A stretch of DNA of 64,000 nucleotides from Gemmatimonadales bacterium. GTDB lineage: Bacteria > Gemmatimonadota > Gemmatimonadetes > Longimicrobiales > Gaopeijiaceae. The DNA lies in contig REBP01000134.1 in assembly GCA_007692665.1 (NCBI GenBank), positions 1 to 64,000 on the forward strand, in the 5' to 3' direction. Positions 18,313 through 54,595 of the stretch are shown here, one piece after another (position 1 is the first letter of the stretch; every line of letters starts with the position of its first letter). The translations under genes were made by a program, and so were the position numbers. The notes beneath the pieces were generated by a model. That model was not told the origin of the DNA. It ran no database searches and was given only the letters and a program-made list of their open reading frames with translations.

Positions 18313-19496
18313 GTCGATACCAGCCCCGTCAGGTGACCGATGTTCTTGAAGAAGATCCTTGCGTGGGCCAGGGGCCGGGCCTTGACCAGTTCCTTCTGCA
18401 TGTAGCCCTCGAAGGTGAGTTCCTGGACGTCCCGGTCCCGGCAGATGGCGACGAACCGCTCCCGGCGATTGTCCGTGGTGTACCAGAAGTCCTGCATGAT
18501 TCCGAGGACCCGGAAGACCATGCCGTGCGTCCGGAGGAACCGCTTGCGGGCCCTTGCCAGCGCCTTCGGGTTGCCGGTCTGGAGCATCTCGTGGACCGCC
18601 TGGGCGGCCACCCGACCCCCGGTCATGGCGTAGAAGATGCCTTCGCCCGACGAGGGGGCGACGACCCCGGCGGCGTCGCCGGCGAGGATCACGTCACGGC
18701 CGTTCTCCCACCGCTTGAGCGGCTTCAGGGGAATCGGGGCGCCCTCGCGCTTGATCGTCTCCAGGGTGTCGAGCCCGGTCTCCTTCCGGAGGTCCCTGAT
18801 CGCGCCGCGCATGTCGAAGCCTCGCTGCTCCGTGCCGGTCCCGATGCTCGTGGTGTCGCCGTGGGGGAAGACCCAGGAGTAGAAGTCCGGCGAGAAGCGT
18901 CCGTTGTAGTAGACATCGCAGCGCGCCGGCCCGAAGACCTCCGAGGCATCCTTCGGTGACTGGACGATCTCGTGGTAGGCGAACACGTAGCGGGCCTGCT
19001 CCGACCCGGGGATCGCCTGCCTGGCCACCTGGGAGAGGGCGCCGTCGGCACCGACCACGACCTTCGCCCGCACGCGCACCTCCCTGCCGGAGCGGGAGCC
19101 GCCCTCGTTGTAGCGAACCACCGGGGAGCCGGTCCCTGCCTCCTCGACGGCCACGAAGTTGCCCGCCACGCGCCGGGCGCCCCGGGACTCGGCCCGGGTC
19201 CGCAGCCACTCGTCGAAGGGACCCCGGTCCACCATGCCCACGAACCCGTCGCCCACCGGGATGTCCACGCTGCGCCCGGTGGGCGAAAGGATGCGTGCGG
19301 TGTCCACGCGGGCCACGAGCATTTCCTCCGGGACCTCGAACTCGTCGAGGAGCCGGGGGGGCACGGCACCGCCGCAGGGCTTCACTCGGCCCTTCCGGTC
19401 CAGGAGCAGCACCGAGTACCCGCGGGTCGCCAGGTCACACGCCGCCGTTGCCCCCGAGGGGCCTCCTCCCACCACGACCACGTCAAAGCTTTCCAT
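18309..19496 (-). CDS. bchP: Geranylgeranyl reductase (bacteriochlorophyll tail)
   Basis: 395 residues. Start at ATG 19496, sharing one base with the bciB stop (TGATG); upstream in-frame codons read back into bciB. FAD-binding GGGPSGATAA is at the N-terminus, followed by KPCGGAVP, VVGADGALS and the second flavin motif LAGDAAGVVAPSSGEGI. It reduces three double bonds of the geranylgeranyl tail to phytyl. It sits in the conserved order bchG-bch2-(bciB)-bchP found in many photosynthesis clusters. Confidence 0.93.
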   Translation of the reverse strand: MESFDVVVVGGGPSGATAACDLATRGYSVLLLDRKGRVKPCGGAVPPRLLDEFEVPEEMLVARVDTARILSPTGRSVDIPVGDGFVGMVDRGPFDEWLRTRAESRGARRVAGNFVAVEEAGTGSPVVRYNEGGSRSGREVRVRAKVVVGADGALSQVARQAIPGSEQARYVFAYHEIVQSPKDASEVFGPARCDVYYNGRFSPDFYSWVFPHGDTTSIGTGTEQRGFDMRGAIRDLRKETGLDTLETIKREGAPIPLKPLKRWENGRDVILAGDAAGVVAPSSGEGIFYAMTGGRVAAQAVHEMLQTGNPKALARARKRFLRTHGMVFRVLGIMQDFWYTTDNRRERFVAICRDRDVQELTFEGYMQKELVKARPLAHARIFFKNIGHLTGLVST

Positions 19497-22119: not shown

Positions 22120-23043
22120 TCAGCTCCCCATCCCGCGGAGGGCGAAGGCGGCGAACATCATCCCCGCCACGAAGAGCGGCACGCCGAACCCCGAATACCA
22201 GAGGGCCCGCTCCCGGGGCGCCTGCAGGAACCGATGGAGCATGGGGATCTGGATCAGCAGCAGGACCCCGATCCCCAGCACGTGCACCGGCCGACCCCAG
22301 GGGGCCATGAGGAGCAGGACCGCGACCTGCGCGGCCACCATGACGCCGGCCGCGACCCAGGCGGCCCGCTCCGGTCCGAGCGCCGCCGGCAGCGAGCGGA
22401 TGCCCATGCGCCGGTCCCCCTCGATGGCCTTGAAGTCGTTCAGGGTCATGATCCCGTGGGTGCCGAGGGAATAGAGGAGGGCCACGACGAGGATGGGCGT
22501 GCCCGGGAGCTGTCCGCCCAGCAGGACTGCCGCGCCGGTGACCCAGGCGAGTCCCTCGTAGGAGACGCCCACGGCGAGGTTGCCGATCCATCCGTTCTGC
22601 TTGAACCGGAAGGGAGGCGCCGAGTATCCCCAGGCAAGGAGCAGCGCCAGGAGCGTCGCGACGAAACCCCACGTGCCGAGGAACCAGCCGGCCGCAGCCG
22701 ACACGCCGGTCCAGGCGACGGCAAGCCCCAGCCCCCAGCGCCCGGGAATGCGTCCCGAGGGAATCGGTCGGTTCGGTTCGTTGATCGCATCTACCTCTCG
22801 GTCGTACCAGTCATTCACGGCCTGGCTCGTCGCGCATACCAGCGGCCCGGCCACGAGGACCCCGAGGAGCGCGATGGGCCAGCGCTCGGACGGAGCCACA
22901 CCCGAGGACACCGCGCCGCACAGGAACGCCCACATGGGCGGGAACCAGGTGACGGGCTTGAACAGCTCCAGCACCGCTCCCGGCTGGGGGAGAGTGCGCG
23001 CCTCGGCGGGCTGCTCTGAGTGTAATGTTTGATGGACAGGCAT
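22120..23043 (-). CDS. bchG: Bacteriochlorophyll synthase (UbiA-type prenyltransferase)
   Basis: About 307 residues from ATG 23043. Strong family matches are FKPVTWFPPMWAFLCG, the Asp-rich site NDWYDREVDAINEPNRPIPS and the second site NDFKAIEGDRRMG, within eight to nine membrane helices. It esterifies bacteriochlorophyllide with geranylgeranyl diphosphate. The start is uncertain: ATG 23043 lies between two PpsR-like operators, one of which falls inside codons 2-8. ATG 23088 or GTG 22974 are alternatives; similarity to other BchG N-termini (a P-x-P just before the ELxKP motif) argues against 22974. Confidence 0.93.
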   Translation of the reverse strand: MPVHQTLHSEQPAEARTLPQPGAVLELFKPVTWFPPMWAFLCGAVSSGVAPSERWPIALLGVLVAGPLVCATSQAVNDWYDREVDAINEPNRPIPSGRIPGRWGLGLAVAWTGVSAAAGWFLGTWGFVATLLALLLAWGYSAPPFRFKQNGWIGNLAVGVSYEGLAWVTGAAVLLGGQLPGTPILVVALLYSLGTHGIMTLNDFKAIEGDRRMGIRSLPAALGPERAAWVAAGVMVAAQVAVLLLMAPWGRPVHVLGIGVLLLIQIPMLHRFLQAPRERALWYSGFGVPLFVAGMMFAAFALRGMGS

Positions 23044-23064
23044 GTTCGTCAAGAAAAATGGACA
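23021..23064. promoter_or_regulatory. Pair of PpsR-type operators at the bchG start
   Basis: Plus strand 23021-23038 reads TGTAATGTTTGATGGACA (TGT-N12-ACA). Minus strand 23064-23047 reads TGTCCATTTTTCTTGACG. Centres are 26 bp apart with an 8-bp gap, the same geometry as upstream of bchC. The minus-strand site contains a TTGACG -35-like box, though no good -10 follows (AACATT at 17 bases). The bchG ATG falls between the two sites. Confidence 0.7.
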
Positions 23065-23154
23065 GTCGTGGCAAAAAAAGAGCTCCATGGTCCGCCGCGG
23101 AGCGGCACGGCGGTGGCGCCGTTCAACCCTTCATGACCCGGACTGGCCATCGGA

Positions 23155-24570
23155 TCACCCGTCGCCGCCGTCGACGTCGTAGCGCCGAAGCTTCGTGTAG
23201 AGGGACTGGCGACTGACCCCCAGGATCTCGGCAGCGGCGGTGCGGTTGCCGTCGGTGAGCTTGAGGGCCGACTCGATGAAATGCGCCTCGACGATCCCCA
23301 CCGTGTTCTGCACGAGCTGCTTCAGCGAGACCTTCCCGACCTGGTCGGTGAGCTGCTCCACCGCGCGGGAGAGGTCCCGGTGGGCGGTGAGGGCACCCTC
23401 GCTCCAGATCCTCCGGCTCACGTTCCGGATCGTGATCCCGATGCAGGGGGGCTCGGCTCCGTCGATGGGAGTGGCGGAGAGCTCCACCTCGGATTCGAGG
23501 TCCAGGGCAGAGTGCAGCGTGGTGGGAAACAGCCGGACTTCACCGAACTTCTCGAGGTTGGTCAGAAGCACGGTCATGTCGGCGCCGGGTCGGCCGAGCC
23601 ATCGTCCGAGGCTGTGTCCGGTGAGTTCCTCCTCGGCGGGGATCTGGACCAGCATGCGGAACGCGCGGTTGGCCATGAGAACGCGGGCGTCCCGATCCGT
23701 CACCACGAAGGGATCCGGACCGTGCTCCAGGAGCCGGGCCGGATTGAGCCCACCGGGCGACGGCGAGGGGCCGGCGGGCCCACTGCGGGCTTCCTGCAGG
23801 TGCACGAGGAGGATCCCGTCCCGCTCCTCCTGCACGACGGCGGCGTCCAGGCGCCAACCCTCGCCACTCCCGAGCTCCAGCGTCACCGTTTCGGCCCGGC
23901 CCCGGTCGCGAACGCCCTCGAGGTGGCGGCGGATCTCGTCACGGGAGCGATCCGCGAAGGTCAGGTCCTCCGGGAAGATGCGGCCGGTGAGCTTCCGCGG
24001 CGGAAGCCCGAAGGCCTGGCCCGCTGCCCGGTTCGCATCCAGGATCCGGCGCGAGGGCGCCTCGAGGACCAGGAGGGCCTCCGAAGACCGCTGGAAGAGG
24101 AGGCGGTAGCGGGTCTCCATCTGGCGGAGCCTCCAGTAGTCGCGTTCCAGCGCCTGCTGGGCTTCGACCAGTCGTCTCTGGAGGTCCGAGAGGGACTGGA
24201 GATTCCGGCCCATGACCAGGAATCCCTCGTCCTCGTCGATGAGGACCCCGGTGTAGCCGATGGGAAGATCGATCCCCCCGGGGAGGGTCTGGTTGACCTG
24301 CCGCGTCCGGGAGATCCCGTTGGCGCGGGCATCCTCCAGGAGCTGGCCGACCTTGGACCGGGTGTCGGGAAGGACGGTCTCGGCCCAGATCCTGCCGATC
24401 CACTCCCGGAGGTTCTCCTCGATGACGGCGGGATCCCGGTACACCTCGAGGACGCGCCCCACCGCATCCAGGTGGAGCACCACGTCGGCAGACGCCCGAA
24501 CCACCCGCTCGAGGACCGGCCCAGCCTTCCCCAGCATGGGCACCGTCGAATTCCGAAAGATGGCGGTCAC
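23155..24570 (-). CDS. ppsR: PpsR/CrtJ-family transcriptional regulator of photosynthesis genes
   Basis: 471 residues, the normal length. Domain order is an N-terminal PAS-like domain (about 20-130), a long Q-linker helix (QRRLVEAQQALERDYWRL), two PAS domains (about 150-260 and 285-385) and a C-terminal Fis-type helix-turn-helix (about 430-465, NRTAAAEILGVSRQSLYTKL). The family represses bch, crt and puf genes by binding TGT-N12-ACA sites, several of which occur in this window. The Cys normally found just before the recognition helix is Phe431, and only one Cys (C376) exists in the whole chain. ppaA lies 78 bases upstream and bchG downstream. Confidence 0.93.
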   Translation of the reverse strand: MTAIFRNSTVPMLGKAGPVLERVVRASADVVLHLDAVGRVLEVYRDPAVIEENLREWIGRIWAETVLPDTRSKVGQLLEDARANGISRTRQVNQTLPGGIDLPIGYTGVLIDEDEGFLVMGRNLQSLSDLQRRLVEAQQALERDYWRLRQMETRYRLLFQRSSEALLVLEAPSRRILDANRAAGQAFGLPPRKLTGRIFPEDLTFADRSRDEIRRHLEGVRDRGRAETVTLELGSGEGWRLDAAVVQEERDGILLVHLQEARSGPAGPSPSPGGLNPARLLEHGPDPFVVTDRDARVLMANRAFRMLVQIPAEEELTGHSLGRWLGRPGADMTVLLTNLEKFGEVRLFPTTLHSALDLESEVELSATPIDGAEPPCIGITIRNVSRRIWSEGALTAHRDLSRAVEQLTDQVGKVSLKQLVQNTVGIVEAHFIESALKLTDGNRTAAAEILGVSRQSLYTKLRRYDVDGGDG

Positions 24571-24648
24571 ATTGAACCTGGCCCGGTAGGGGGGGACTCC
24601 AGCCTTTGCCGCGCCCCCTGCAACGTGCAGGGCGCCGAGCCGGAGTCC

Positions 24649-25449
24649 TCAGAGAAAGGCACGTGCAACCAGAGGTGCGAGACGAGCATCAACCGAGGCG
24701 GCATCGGCCCCCACGGCATCCACCAGGTCCGGCTGCGAGAGGAGTGCAGGGCCCCCGAGGAGCACGCCCACTTCGGGGTTCCGGGAGCGGCGACGGATGC
24801 GCCGGATCTCGTCCCTGAGCTGGGCGGCGCCATCGACAAGGGAGATGGACAGCCCCACCACGTGCACGAAACGAGTCGAAACCAGCTCCGGGACCGGAGC
24901 CGATTCGAAGGGGGCGCCGAAGCAGACGGACCACGAGGAGGCCTGGAAGAACTCGGCCACCATCAGCATGCCCAGCGTGTGGGTCTGCCCCGAGGGCGAC
25001 GCCAGCAGCACCACGGGCCGACCCCCTTCCGACATGGGCTCCTCGGAAGGAATCTGGCTTCCCAGCTCCCGCACGATGCGCTGAAGCCTCCCGGTCACCA
25101 GCGTCACGTCGACGAAATCGCACCTGTCCTCCTCCCAGTCCACCCCGATTTCCCGAGCCGCCGGCGCGGCCAGCTCCACCAGGAACCGGTCCGCACTGAT
25201 CCCGCGCCGAATCGCGCGGGAGACAAAGGCGTCGAGCGCCGTTTCGTCGAACCCCCGAAGCACCGTGACGAACTTCCTGATCTCGACCCGGTCCAGTTCG
25301 AGGCTGAGCTTCGAGACGGTCCCCTTCGGATTGGATTCGGACTCAAAACGTGCAGAAGGTAGTCTATGCACGTTTGGCTGGTCCGGCAACGGGGCGAAAT
25401 GACCCTCCGCTCCGCCGTCCGCGCTGGCTTCGTGCCCTTTCATCGTCAT
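24649..25449 (-). CDS. ppaA: PpaA/AerR-family cobalamin-binding antirepressor
   Basis: About 266 residues from ATG 25449 (ATG 25443 also possible; no strong ribosome site). The N-terminal about 50 residues are poorly conserved. A helical cap with DWEEDRCDFVDVTLVTGRLQ is followed by a Rossmann B12-type domain with SPSGQTHTLGM, whose H157 matches the cobalamin-contacting His of PpaA/AerR. Members bind PpsR/CrtJ and modulate repression depending on light or B12. Gene order ppaA-ppsR, divergent from bchF, is the classical arrangement. The promoter is the TTGACG-N17-TATTGA pair at 25548-25520 on the minus strand. Confidence 0.88.
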   Translation of the reverse strand: MTMKGHEASADGGAEGHFAPLPDQPNVHRLPSARFESESNPKGTVSKLSLELDRVEIRKFVTVLRGFDETALDAFVSRAIRRGISADRFLVELAAPAAREIGVDWEEDRCDFVDVTLVTGRLQRIVRELGSQIPSEEPMSEGGRPVVLLASPSGQTHTLGMLMVAEFFQASSWSVCFGAPFESAPVPELVSTRFVHVVGLSISLVDGAAQLRDEIRRIRRRSRNPEVGVLLGGPALLSQPDLVDAVGADAASVDARLAPLVARAFL

Positions 25450-25519
25450 TCCCGTGGGGGAGAGAGAGGGGAGGCCGGAGCCGCAGGCGCGCCGGTCCGG
25501 GGCTTCCCATTTCCCCCCT

Positions 25520-25548
25520 TCAATAATGTCCGGATTGCTTGACGTCAA
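25520..25548 (-). promoter_or_regulatory. Promoter of ppaA-ppsR
   Basis: On the minus strand TTGACG (25548-25543) and TATTGA (25525-25520) are 17 bases apart. The -35 is half of the palindrome TTGACGTCAA (25539-25548). The predicted transcript start is about 64 bases before ppaA. Both PpsR-like sites overlap this element. Confidence 0.65.
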
Positions 25549-25560
25549 TATTTCTTGACA
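25527..25560. promoter_or_regulatory. Two overlapping PpsR-type operators between ppaA and bchF
   Basis: Plus strand 25527-25544 reads TGTCCGGATTGCTTGACG. Minus strand 25560-25543 reads TGTCAAGAAATATTGACG. They share two bases and face each other. Each has TGTC-N10-GACG, one base from the textbook TGTC-N10-GACA. Together they cover the -35 boxes of both divergent promoters. Confidence 0.72.
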
Positions 25561-25584
25561 CGACGATTCCACCCGCCCTATACT
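25555..25584 (+). promoter_or_regulatory. Promoter of the bchF-acsF operon
   Basis: A consensus TTGACA -35 (25555-25560) and TATACT -10 (25579-25584) are 18 bases apart, starting about 57 bases ahead of the bchF ATG. The -35 lies inside the second PpsR-like operator, so repressor binding should exclude polymerase. Confidence 0.75.
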
Positions 25585-25586
25585 GA

Positions 25587-27674
<2,088 letters not shown>

Positions 27675-54527: not shown

Positions 54528-54557
54528 ACTATGGGGTGGTTACCCCCTGCCCGTCAA
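54528..54557 (-). promoter_or_regulatory. Promoter of bchCXYZ-pufBALMC
   Basis: On the minus strand TTGACG (54557-54552) and CATAGT (54533-54528) are 18 bases apart, about 56 bases before the bchC start after the expected transcript start. The -35 box is the right half of the proximal PpsR-like operator. Confidence 0.65.
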
Positions 54558-54595
54558 GTAGAACTTACAGATGGGTGTGTCCAGTCATCTTGACA
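54552..54595. promoter_or_regulatory. Pair of PpsR-type operators upstream of bchC
   Basis: Proximal site (minus strand, 54569-54552) TGTAAGTTCTACTTGACG; distal site (54578-54595, plus) TGTCCAGTCATCTTGACA, a perfect TGTC-N10-GACA that also reads as a site on the minus strand. The centres are 26 bp apart with an 8-bp gap, exactly as at bchG, and the proximal site covers the -35. Confidence 0.78.

Follow-up and report, generated by a model that had tools for sequence, protein, structure and literature searches.

PpsR, which is known mainly from Rhodobacter, is the master repressor of photosynthesis genes in purple bacteria, and its target is TGT-N12-ACA. We analyzed a 64,000-nucleotide stretch of DNA from a Gemmatimonadales bacterium (hereafter the window), in which ppaA-ppsR lies opposite the operon bchFNBHLM with PpsR-type sites in between. 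The operon is led by bchF, encoding 2-vinyl bacteriochlorophyllide hydratase (25648-26160, plus strand), which matches TIGR02020 with 173.8 bits against a cut-off of 101. On the minus strand lie a ppaA/aerR-like gene for a homologue of the B12-binding antirepressor (24649-25452, start codon provisional) and, downstream of it, the ppsR/crtJ repressor gene (23155-24570), whose product matches TIGR02040 with 424.3 bits against a cut-off of 275.4. Membership of PpsR/CrtJ was judged by a match along the whole of TIGR02040 (PAS domains plus a Fis-type helix-turn-helix, HTH) above the curated cut-off, and the match covers positions 3-441 of the 442 in the profile. The genes bchG, bchP, bchC (TIGR01202), and pufM in the window were likewise named by curated profiles. 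The ppaA-like gene gave no NCBIfam match, and we take it as ppaA/aerR by position and homology: its homologues are divergent from bchF in relatives, and two such loci, L154 (R. litoralis) and L155 (Roseinatronobacter), have cobalamin-dependent proteins annotated at this position. The first-pass annotation had named the same three genes, and its names stand, those of ppsR and bchF on scores above curated cut-offs and that of ppaA on these two grounds.

Two interlocked PpsR-type sites and the predicted promoters

Between ppaA and bchF, two sites of the form TGTC-N10-GACG face each other in opposite orientation. Site A (TGTCCGGATTGCTTGACG; 25527-25544, plus strand) scores 11.2 and site B (TGTCAAGAAATATTGACG; 25560-25543, minus strand) scores 13.8 with an 18-bp matrix that was derived from ChIP-seq data on R. 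sphaeroides (16 sites; PMC4344238) and contains no Gemmatimonadota sequence. The sites have the CG at 25543-25544 in common, so that they overlap by 2 bp, exactly as had been described in the first-pass annotation, and their centers are 16 bp apart. Together they form a 34-bp element (25527-25560; consensus TGTCAA-N6-TTKACGTMAA-N6-TTGACA), a putative interlocked double operator, at the heart of which the two inner half-sites build the palindrome TTGACGTCAA (25539-25548). These inner halves read ACG/CGT and are one base off the textbook TGT-N12-ACA, at the shared CG. Because each strand contributes one G at this step, A and B both keep the conserved G and lose the outermost base only.

This geometry departs from that of tandem PpsR operators, which are defined by a gap of 7-9 bp. 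Two other PpsR-type pairs in the window, both on the minus strand, are tandems of this defined kind, with centers 26 bp apart and a gap of 8 bp: one at the 5' end of bchG (23021-23038 and 23047-23064; scores 12.6 and 13.6) and one upstream of bchC (54552-54569 and 54578-54595; scores 12.5 and 17.4). On ideal B-DNA, the rotation between the dyads is 189 degrees at 16 bp versus 171 degrees at 26 bp. The bchG pair (23021-23064) overlaps the start of the longest open reading frame, and the true bchG start may be further in. We disregarded further matrix matches at 18898, 46028, and 59020, which are low-scoring or intragenic.

The outer half of site B coincides with the predicted -35 box of bchF, which places the element on the promoter of a photosynthesis operon. 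This promoter (25555-25584, plus strand) consists of a -35 TTGACA (25555-25560), an 18-bp spacer, and a -10 TATACT (25579-25584), with transcription expected to start near 25591; its -35 box begins 7 bases past the end of the palindrome at 25548, in agreement with the earlier description. It was the sole sigma70-like promoter found by a consensus scan of 22900-25800 (11 out of 12 matches; 0.1 in shuffles). A bchF -10 box with A at its second and T at its sixth position, 17-18 bp from the -35 box, recurs in all 6 copies of the window's family, in 25 out of 29 Gemmatimonadota copies outside that family (shuffle ceiling of 8), and in 38 out of 40 Pseudomonadota copies (shuffle ceiling of 13).

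The promoter on the ppaA side is a weaker case. The candidate in the window (25520-25548, minus strand) combines a -35 TTGACG (25548-25543), a 17-bp spacer, and a weak -10 TATTGA (25525-25520; 3 out of 6 consensus bases), with a start expected near 25513, and the sigma70 consensus scan of 22900-25800 did not recover it. The inner TTGACG followed by TATTnn at 17 bp nonetheless recurs without exception in the window's family (six interlock-bearing members examined). The proposal that the ppaA -35 box lies within the palindrome thus gains from this recurrence and is held back by the weak -10 box and the scan that missed it. It does not carry over to the other Gemmatimonadota copies, most of them from sister family f5, in which a mirror-image ppaA promoter uses the outer half of site A, TTGACA, as its -35 box; in 25 out of 29 of these copies, a ppaA-side box with A at the second and T at the sixth position, mostly CAnnnT, follows at 17-18 bp (at most 7 in shuffles). 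In the window's own family, TGTCCG or a similar sequence stands in place of this outer TTGACA, so that the -35 reading is gone and the TGTC is intact in six out of six. A promoter alone therefore does not explain the conservation of the outer TGTC, and the PpsR signal can be separated from the promoter signal in this family.

Conservation and natural variants of the element

Single sites carry no weight: TGTC-N10-GACA with one mismatch occurs 18 times in the window versus 17.9 expected, and we dropped single-site counts as evidence because they are at chance level. The interlocked pair behaves differently. The strict 34-bp pattern TGTCN10KACGTMN10GACA matches once in the 4.23-Mb draft genome from which the window derives, and across 395 Gemmatimonadota genomes most other matches are ppaA-bchF elements that we had already identified. 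Matches with GC-rich arms in G371, G104, G360, G124, G073, G017, and G252 and at G192:C151 appear chance-like and were rejected. A phylum-wide search for bchF gave matches, including a few weak ones, in 44 of the 395 genomes.

In a matrix scan upstream of bchF, the 16-bp pair was found in 36 out of 41 Gemmatimonadota loci and 40 out of 79 Pseudomonadota loci (31 and 24, respectively, at a stricter matrix threshold); the counted loci share descent and are not independent events, so the argument rests on a spacing that stays fixed while flanks and spacers diverge. The next most common spacing occurred in 2 loci, and dinucleotide shuffles gave 0. Aligned non-redundant copies, 35 from Gemmatimonadota and 40 from Pseudomonadota, hardly vary in the central ACGT, the outer TGT, and the right-hand TTGACA. 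The score of site A, already low in the window at 11.2, drops to 5.5-8.5 in other members of the window's family.

Among the Pseudomonadota with the pair are members of the Alpha-, Beta-, and Gammaproteobacteria. Among about 23 Rhodobacterales loci, identified by inspection of locus titles, the pair was found in none, and most of them contain two separate canonical sites about 140 bp apart. In 14 of these loci (L154, L075, L076, L096, L100, L103, L109, L116, L124, L130, L134, L136, L142, and L150), the distance is 142-144 bp; the remaining two-site distances in the Rhodobacterales ppaA-bchF region range from 136 to 154 bp.

Within Gemmatimonadota, the 16-bp pair is missing from 5 out of 41 loci, and 3 of these 5 contain a single near-perfect site. 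These three, all of genus g92 (G282, G135, and G393; loci L038, L039, and L042), have one near-perfect TGT-N12-ACA site, with scores of 18.8-19.8, instead of the interlock. G203 retains the pair, with site A extended by one base, and G289 has a 26-bp pair. Genus g51 (L009, L010, L011, L023, L026, and L027) has a third PpsR-type site, of the CGTCAA...TACA type, at or near the bchF start and downstream of the interlock. Two further copies lie in genomes for which the phylum-wide search gave no bchF match. In G332 (L158, C2:139600-149600), the element precedes ppaA-ppsR and is followed by TTGACA-N17-CATACT, with permease-like genes on the opposite side, an arrangement that suggests a role of the element in ppaA-ppsR expression. 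In G199 (L157, C1:2948387-2948420), a near-perfect 34-bp copy, which is not part of a photosynthesis cluster, adjoins a gene that reads as one for an XRE-type regulator and is perhaps that regulator's own operator.

A candidate double operator for PpsR

The element is real and conserved, and it probably functions as a double operator for PpsR; in view of its deep conservation, the first-pass proposal of an interlocked PpsR-type pair acting as an operator is by far the best reading of the sequence. We consider it likely that PpsR/CrtJ uses the 34-bp element as a compact double operator in the divergent bchF-ppaA region, where dimers would block bchF and probably ppaA. Binding by PpsR, simultaneous occupancy of both sites, and the effects on ppaA and ppsR are inferred. 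One PpsR dimer would bind per 18-bp palindrome, and with centers 16 bp apart the two dimers would sit on opposite faces of the helix, in a phase near that of the 26-bp tandems and one turn closer together. A PpsR tetramer could then clamp both faces of the DNA. The bound repressor would cover the bchF -35 box and, in the window's family, also the probable ppaA -35 box, such that bchF and probably ppaA(-ppsR) would be lowered together and be released via PpaA/B12 or another signal. The first-pass annotation likewise proposed a single repressor assembly that would silence both directions.

PpsR control of the divergent ppaA-bchF region is already known; we found no interlocked or overlapping PpsR sites in the openly readable literature that we searched. 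In R. sphaeroides, as in the window, ppaA and bchFNBHLM are divergent with PpsR sites for both, one for ppaA and one for bchF under a single ChIP peak, and both genes are repressed; unlike those of the window, both sites listed there are complete palindromes of the TGT-N12-ACA type (PMC4344238). The excerpts of the report on Dinoroseobacter shibae likewise describe overlapping divergent bchF/ppaA promoters with PpsR sites that span -35 and -10, and a bchF reporter that is released by mutation of ppsR or of the sites; they differ from the window in listing four TGT-N12-ACA sites, none described there as interlocked (PMC10890935). At R. capsulatus bchC and Rubrivivax pucB/crtI, two palindromes lie over the promoter, as in the window, and PpsR/CrtJ protects both together, tolerates ACG/CGT variants, and has its redox response tuned by the spacing between the palindromes (PMC5362033, PMC4452267). 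These tandems have a gap of 8-9 bp and centers 26-27 bp apart, whereas the window has a 2-bp overlap and centers 16 bp apart. The inner halves of the window's sites resemble further known targets: Rubrivivax PpsR footprints include TGT-N12-ACG and cGT-N12-ACA variants (PMC4452267), and R. sphaeroides PpsR binds a CGT-variant site at prrA (PMC4344238).

The conserved feature might instead be merely a pair of back-to-back -35 boxes, or the site of another regulator, with no PpsR binding, since TTGACA can be read as a -35 box or as half of a PpsR site and the G199 copy stands beside what reads as an XRE-type gene. We regard this as very improbable, given that the central ACGT does not vary and yet serves no apparent purpose in the sister-family promoters, that the outer TGTC persists in six out of six copies of the window's family where no -35 box remains, and that the strict pattern, barring the GC-rich chance-like matches, is nearly restricted to phototrophs among the 395 genomes. 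A less sweeping alternative is that PpsR governs bchF only, with the ppaA/ppsR promoter little affected and no autoregulation. In Gemmatimonas phototrophica, ppsR and ppaA remain steady while light represses the bch operons (PMC11406998), R. sphaeroides ppsR is almost invariant with respect to PpsR (PMC4344238), and the ppaA -10 box of the window is weak, all of which favor such a restriction. Yet ppaA is repressed 7.5-fold by PpsR in R. sphaeroides (PMC4344238), ppsR and ppaA of Sediminicoccus track their targets, most sister-family copies have a ppaA promoter whose -35 box is the outer TTGACA of site A, and G332 retains the element at ppaA-ppsR without an adjacent bchF; we therefore find control of bchF only rather doubtful. 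The claim of the first-pass annotation that ppsR represses its own operon is uncertain all the same. In G. phototrophica, oxygen does not affect expression of the cluster and ppsR/ppaA do not respond to light (PMC11406998), which weakens both this claim and the predicted effect on ppaA.

How two dimers would be accommodated on base pairs that A and B share is a separate question, as the sharing may hinder full simultaneous occupancy. The sites could be mutually exclusive, with one dimer at a time on A or B and the repressor shared between the promoters. This would suit the CG step common to both inner half-sites, the sister-family -35 boxes, which are the outer halves so that each dimer would cover one promoter only, and the three genomes with a single near-perfect site. 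However, 76 loci from two phyla all hold the centers exactly 16 bp apart, a constancy for which pure competition gives no obvious reason, the sites at this distance keep to opposite faces of the helix as those of the 26-bp tandems do, and PpsR is known to form tetramers, and so we think exclusive binding unlikely. Strict steric exclusion of two dimers was not adopted either, as the centers of the inner half-sites lie about 4 bp apart on different sides of ideal B-DNA. Instead, we favor, with moderate confidence, a tetramer on both faces over competition between dimers. This preference draws on the known phase of the 26-bp tandems, on PpsR tetramers (PpsR is tetrameric in Rubrivivax (PMC4452267) and in a dimer-tetramer equilibrium in R. 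sphaeroides (PMC3949515)), and on the opposite-face precedent of IdeR. IdeR/DtxR operators accommodate two dimers on interleaved repeats on opposite DNA faces; the likeness is one of mode only, as these proteins belong to a family unrelated to PpsR and their operator is 19 bp long (PMC8464063).

PpsR without the redox cysteine and the photosynthesis cluster of Gemmatimonadota

The recognition helix SRQSLYxKLRR is unchanged in Gemmatimonadota PpsR. At the position of CrtJ C420, by comparison, all 23 distinct Gemmatimonadota HTHs have Phe, and 64 Pseudomonadota HTHs have Cys. The PpsR of the window contains one Cys only (Cys376), which lies outside the HTH, and has Phe at the C420 position; it thus lacks the cysteine of Rhodobacter-type redox sensing (CrtJ C420, PpsR C424, and Rubrivivax C436). 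The HTH redox cysteine is likewise absent from PpsR2 of Bradyrhizobium and R. palustris, so this residue bears on sensing and not on PpsR membership. Moreover, repression persists in Rubrivivax PpsR C436A, and the cysteine is therefore not required for repression everywhere. These observations fit a Gemmatimonadota PpsR that would read its operator yet sense no oxygen via an HTH cysteine.

Gemmatimonas phototrophica resembles the window in cluster type, regulators, and the interlocked element. Our dataset includes an element-bearing genome, G039, whose PufM agrees with chain M of PDB 7o0u at all 355 residues that were compared; 7O0W, an entry given with an identical sequence, is named as Gem. 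phototrophica (PMC12817894). Another genome, G074, matches the Gem. groenlandica complex (9h19). The matrix locates sites in G039 at bchG (19.8), at the interlock (11.2 and 13.7), at bchC (16.3), and next to a crtF-like gene (15.6). The G. phototrophica transcriptome study, which used Prodoric motifs, reported just one PpsR site for the cluster, which lies at bchID-puhE (PMC11406998). The difference between this single site and the several sites in G039 is likely due to the motif and cut-off used.

More broadly, and tentatively, we suggest that the interlocked 16-bp pair could represent an ancient operator class of its own for PpsR, which would be the norm at bchF in lineages other than Rhodobacterales and would have been brought with the cluster into Gemmatimonadota, where a tetramer would clamp it and where, after loss of the redox cysteine, it would answer to B12/light or another signal and not to oxygen. 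Loss of this cysteine is a simple possible reason for the missing oxygen response in Gemmatimonadota. If the interlock serves bchF-ppaA in most other lineages, searches by the Rhodobacter rule TGT-N12-ACA would miss a main site, and the view that the transferred cluster of G. phototrophica is barely PpsR-controlled would deserve re-testing.
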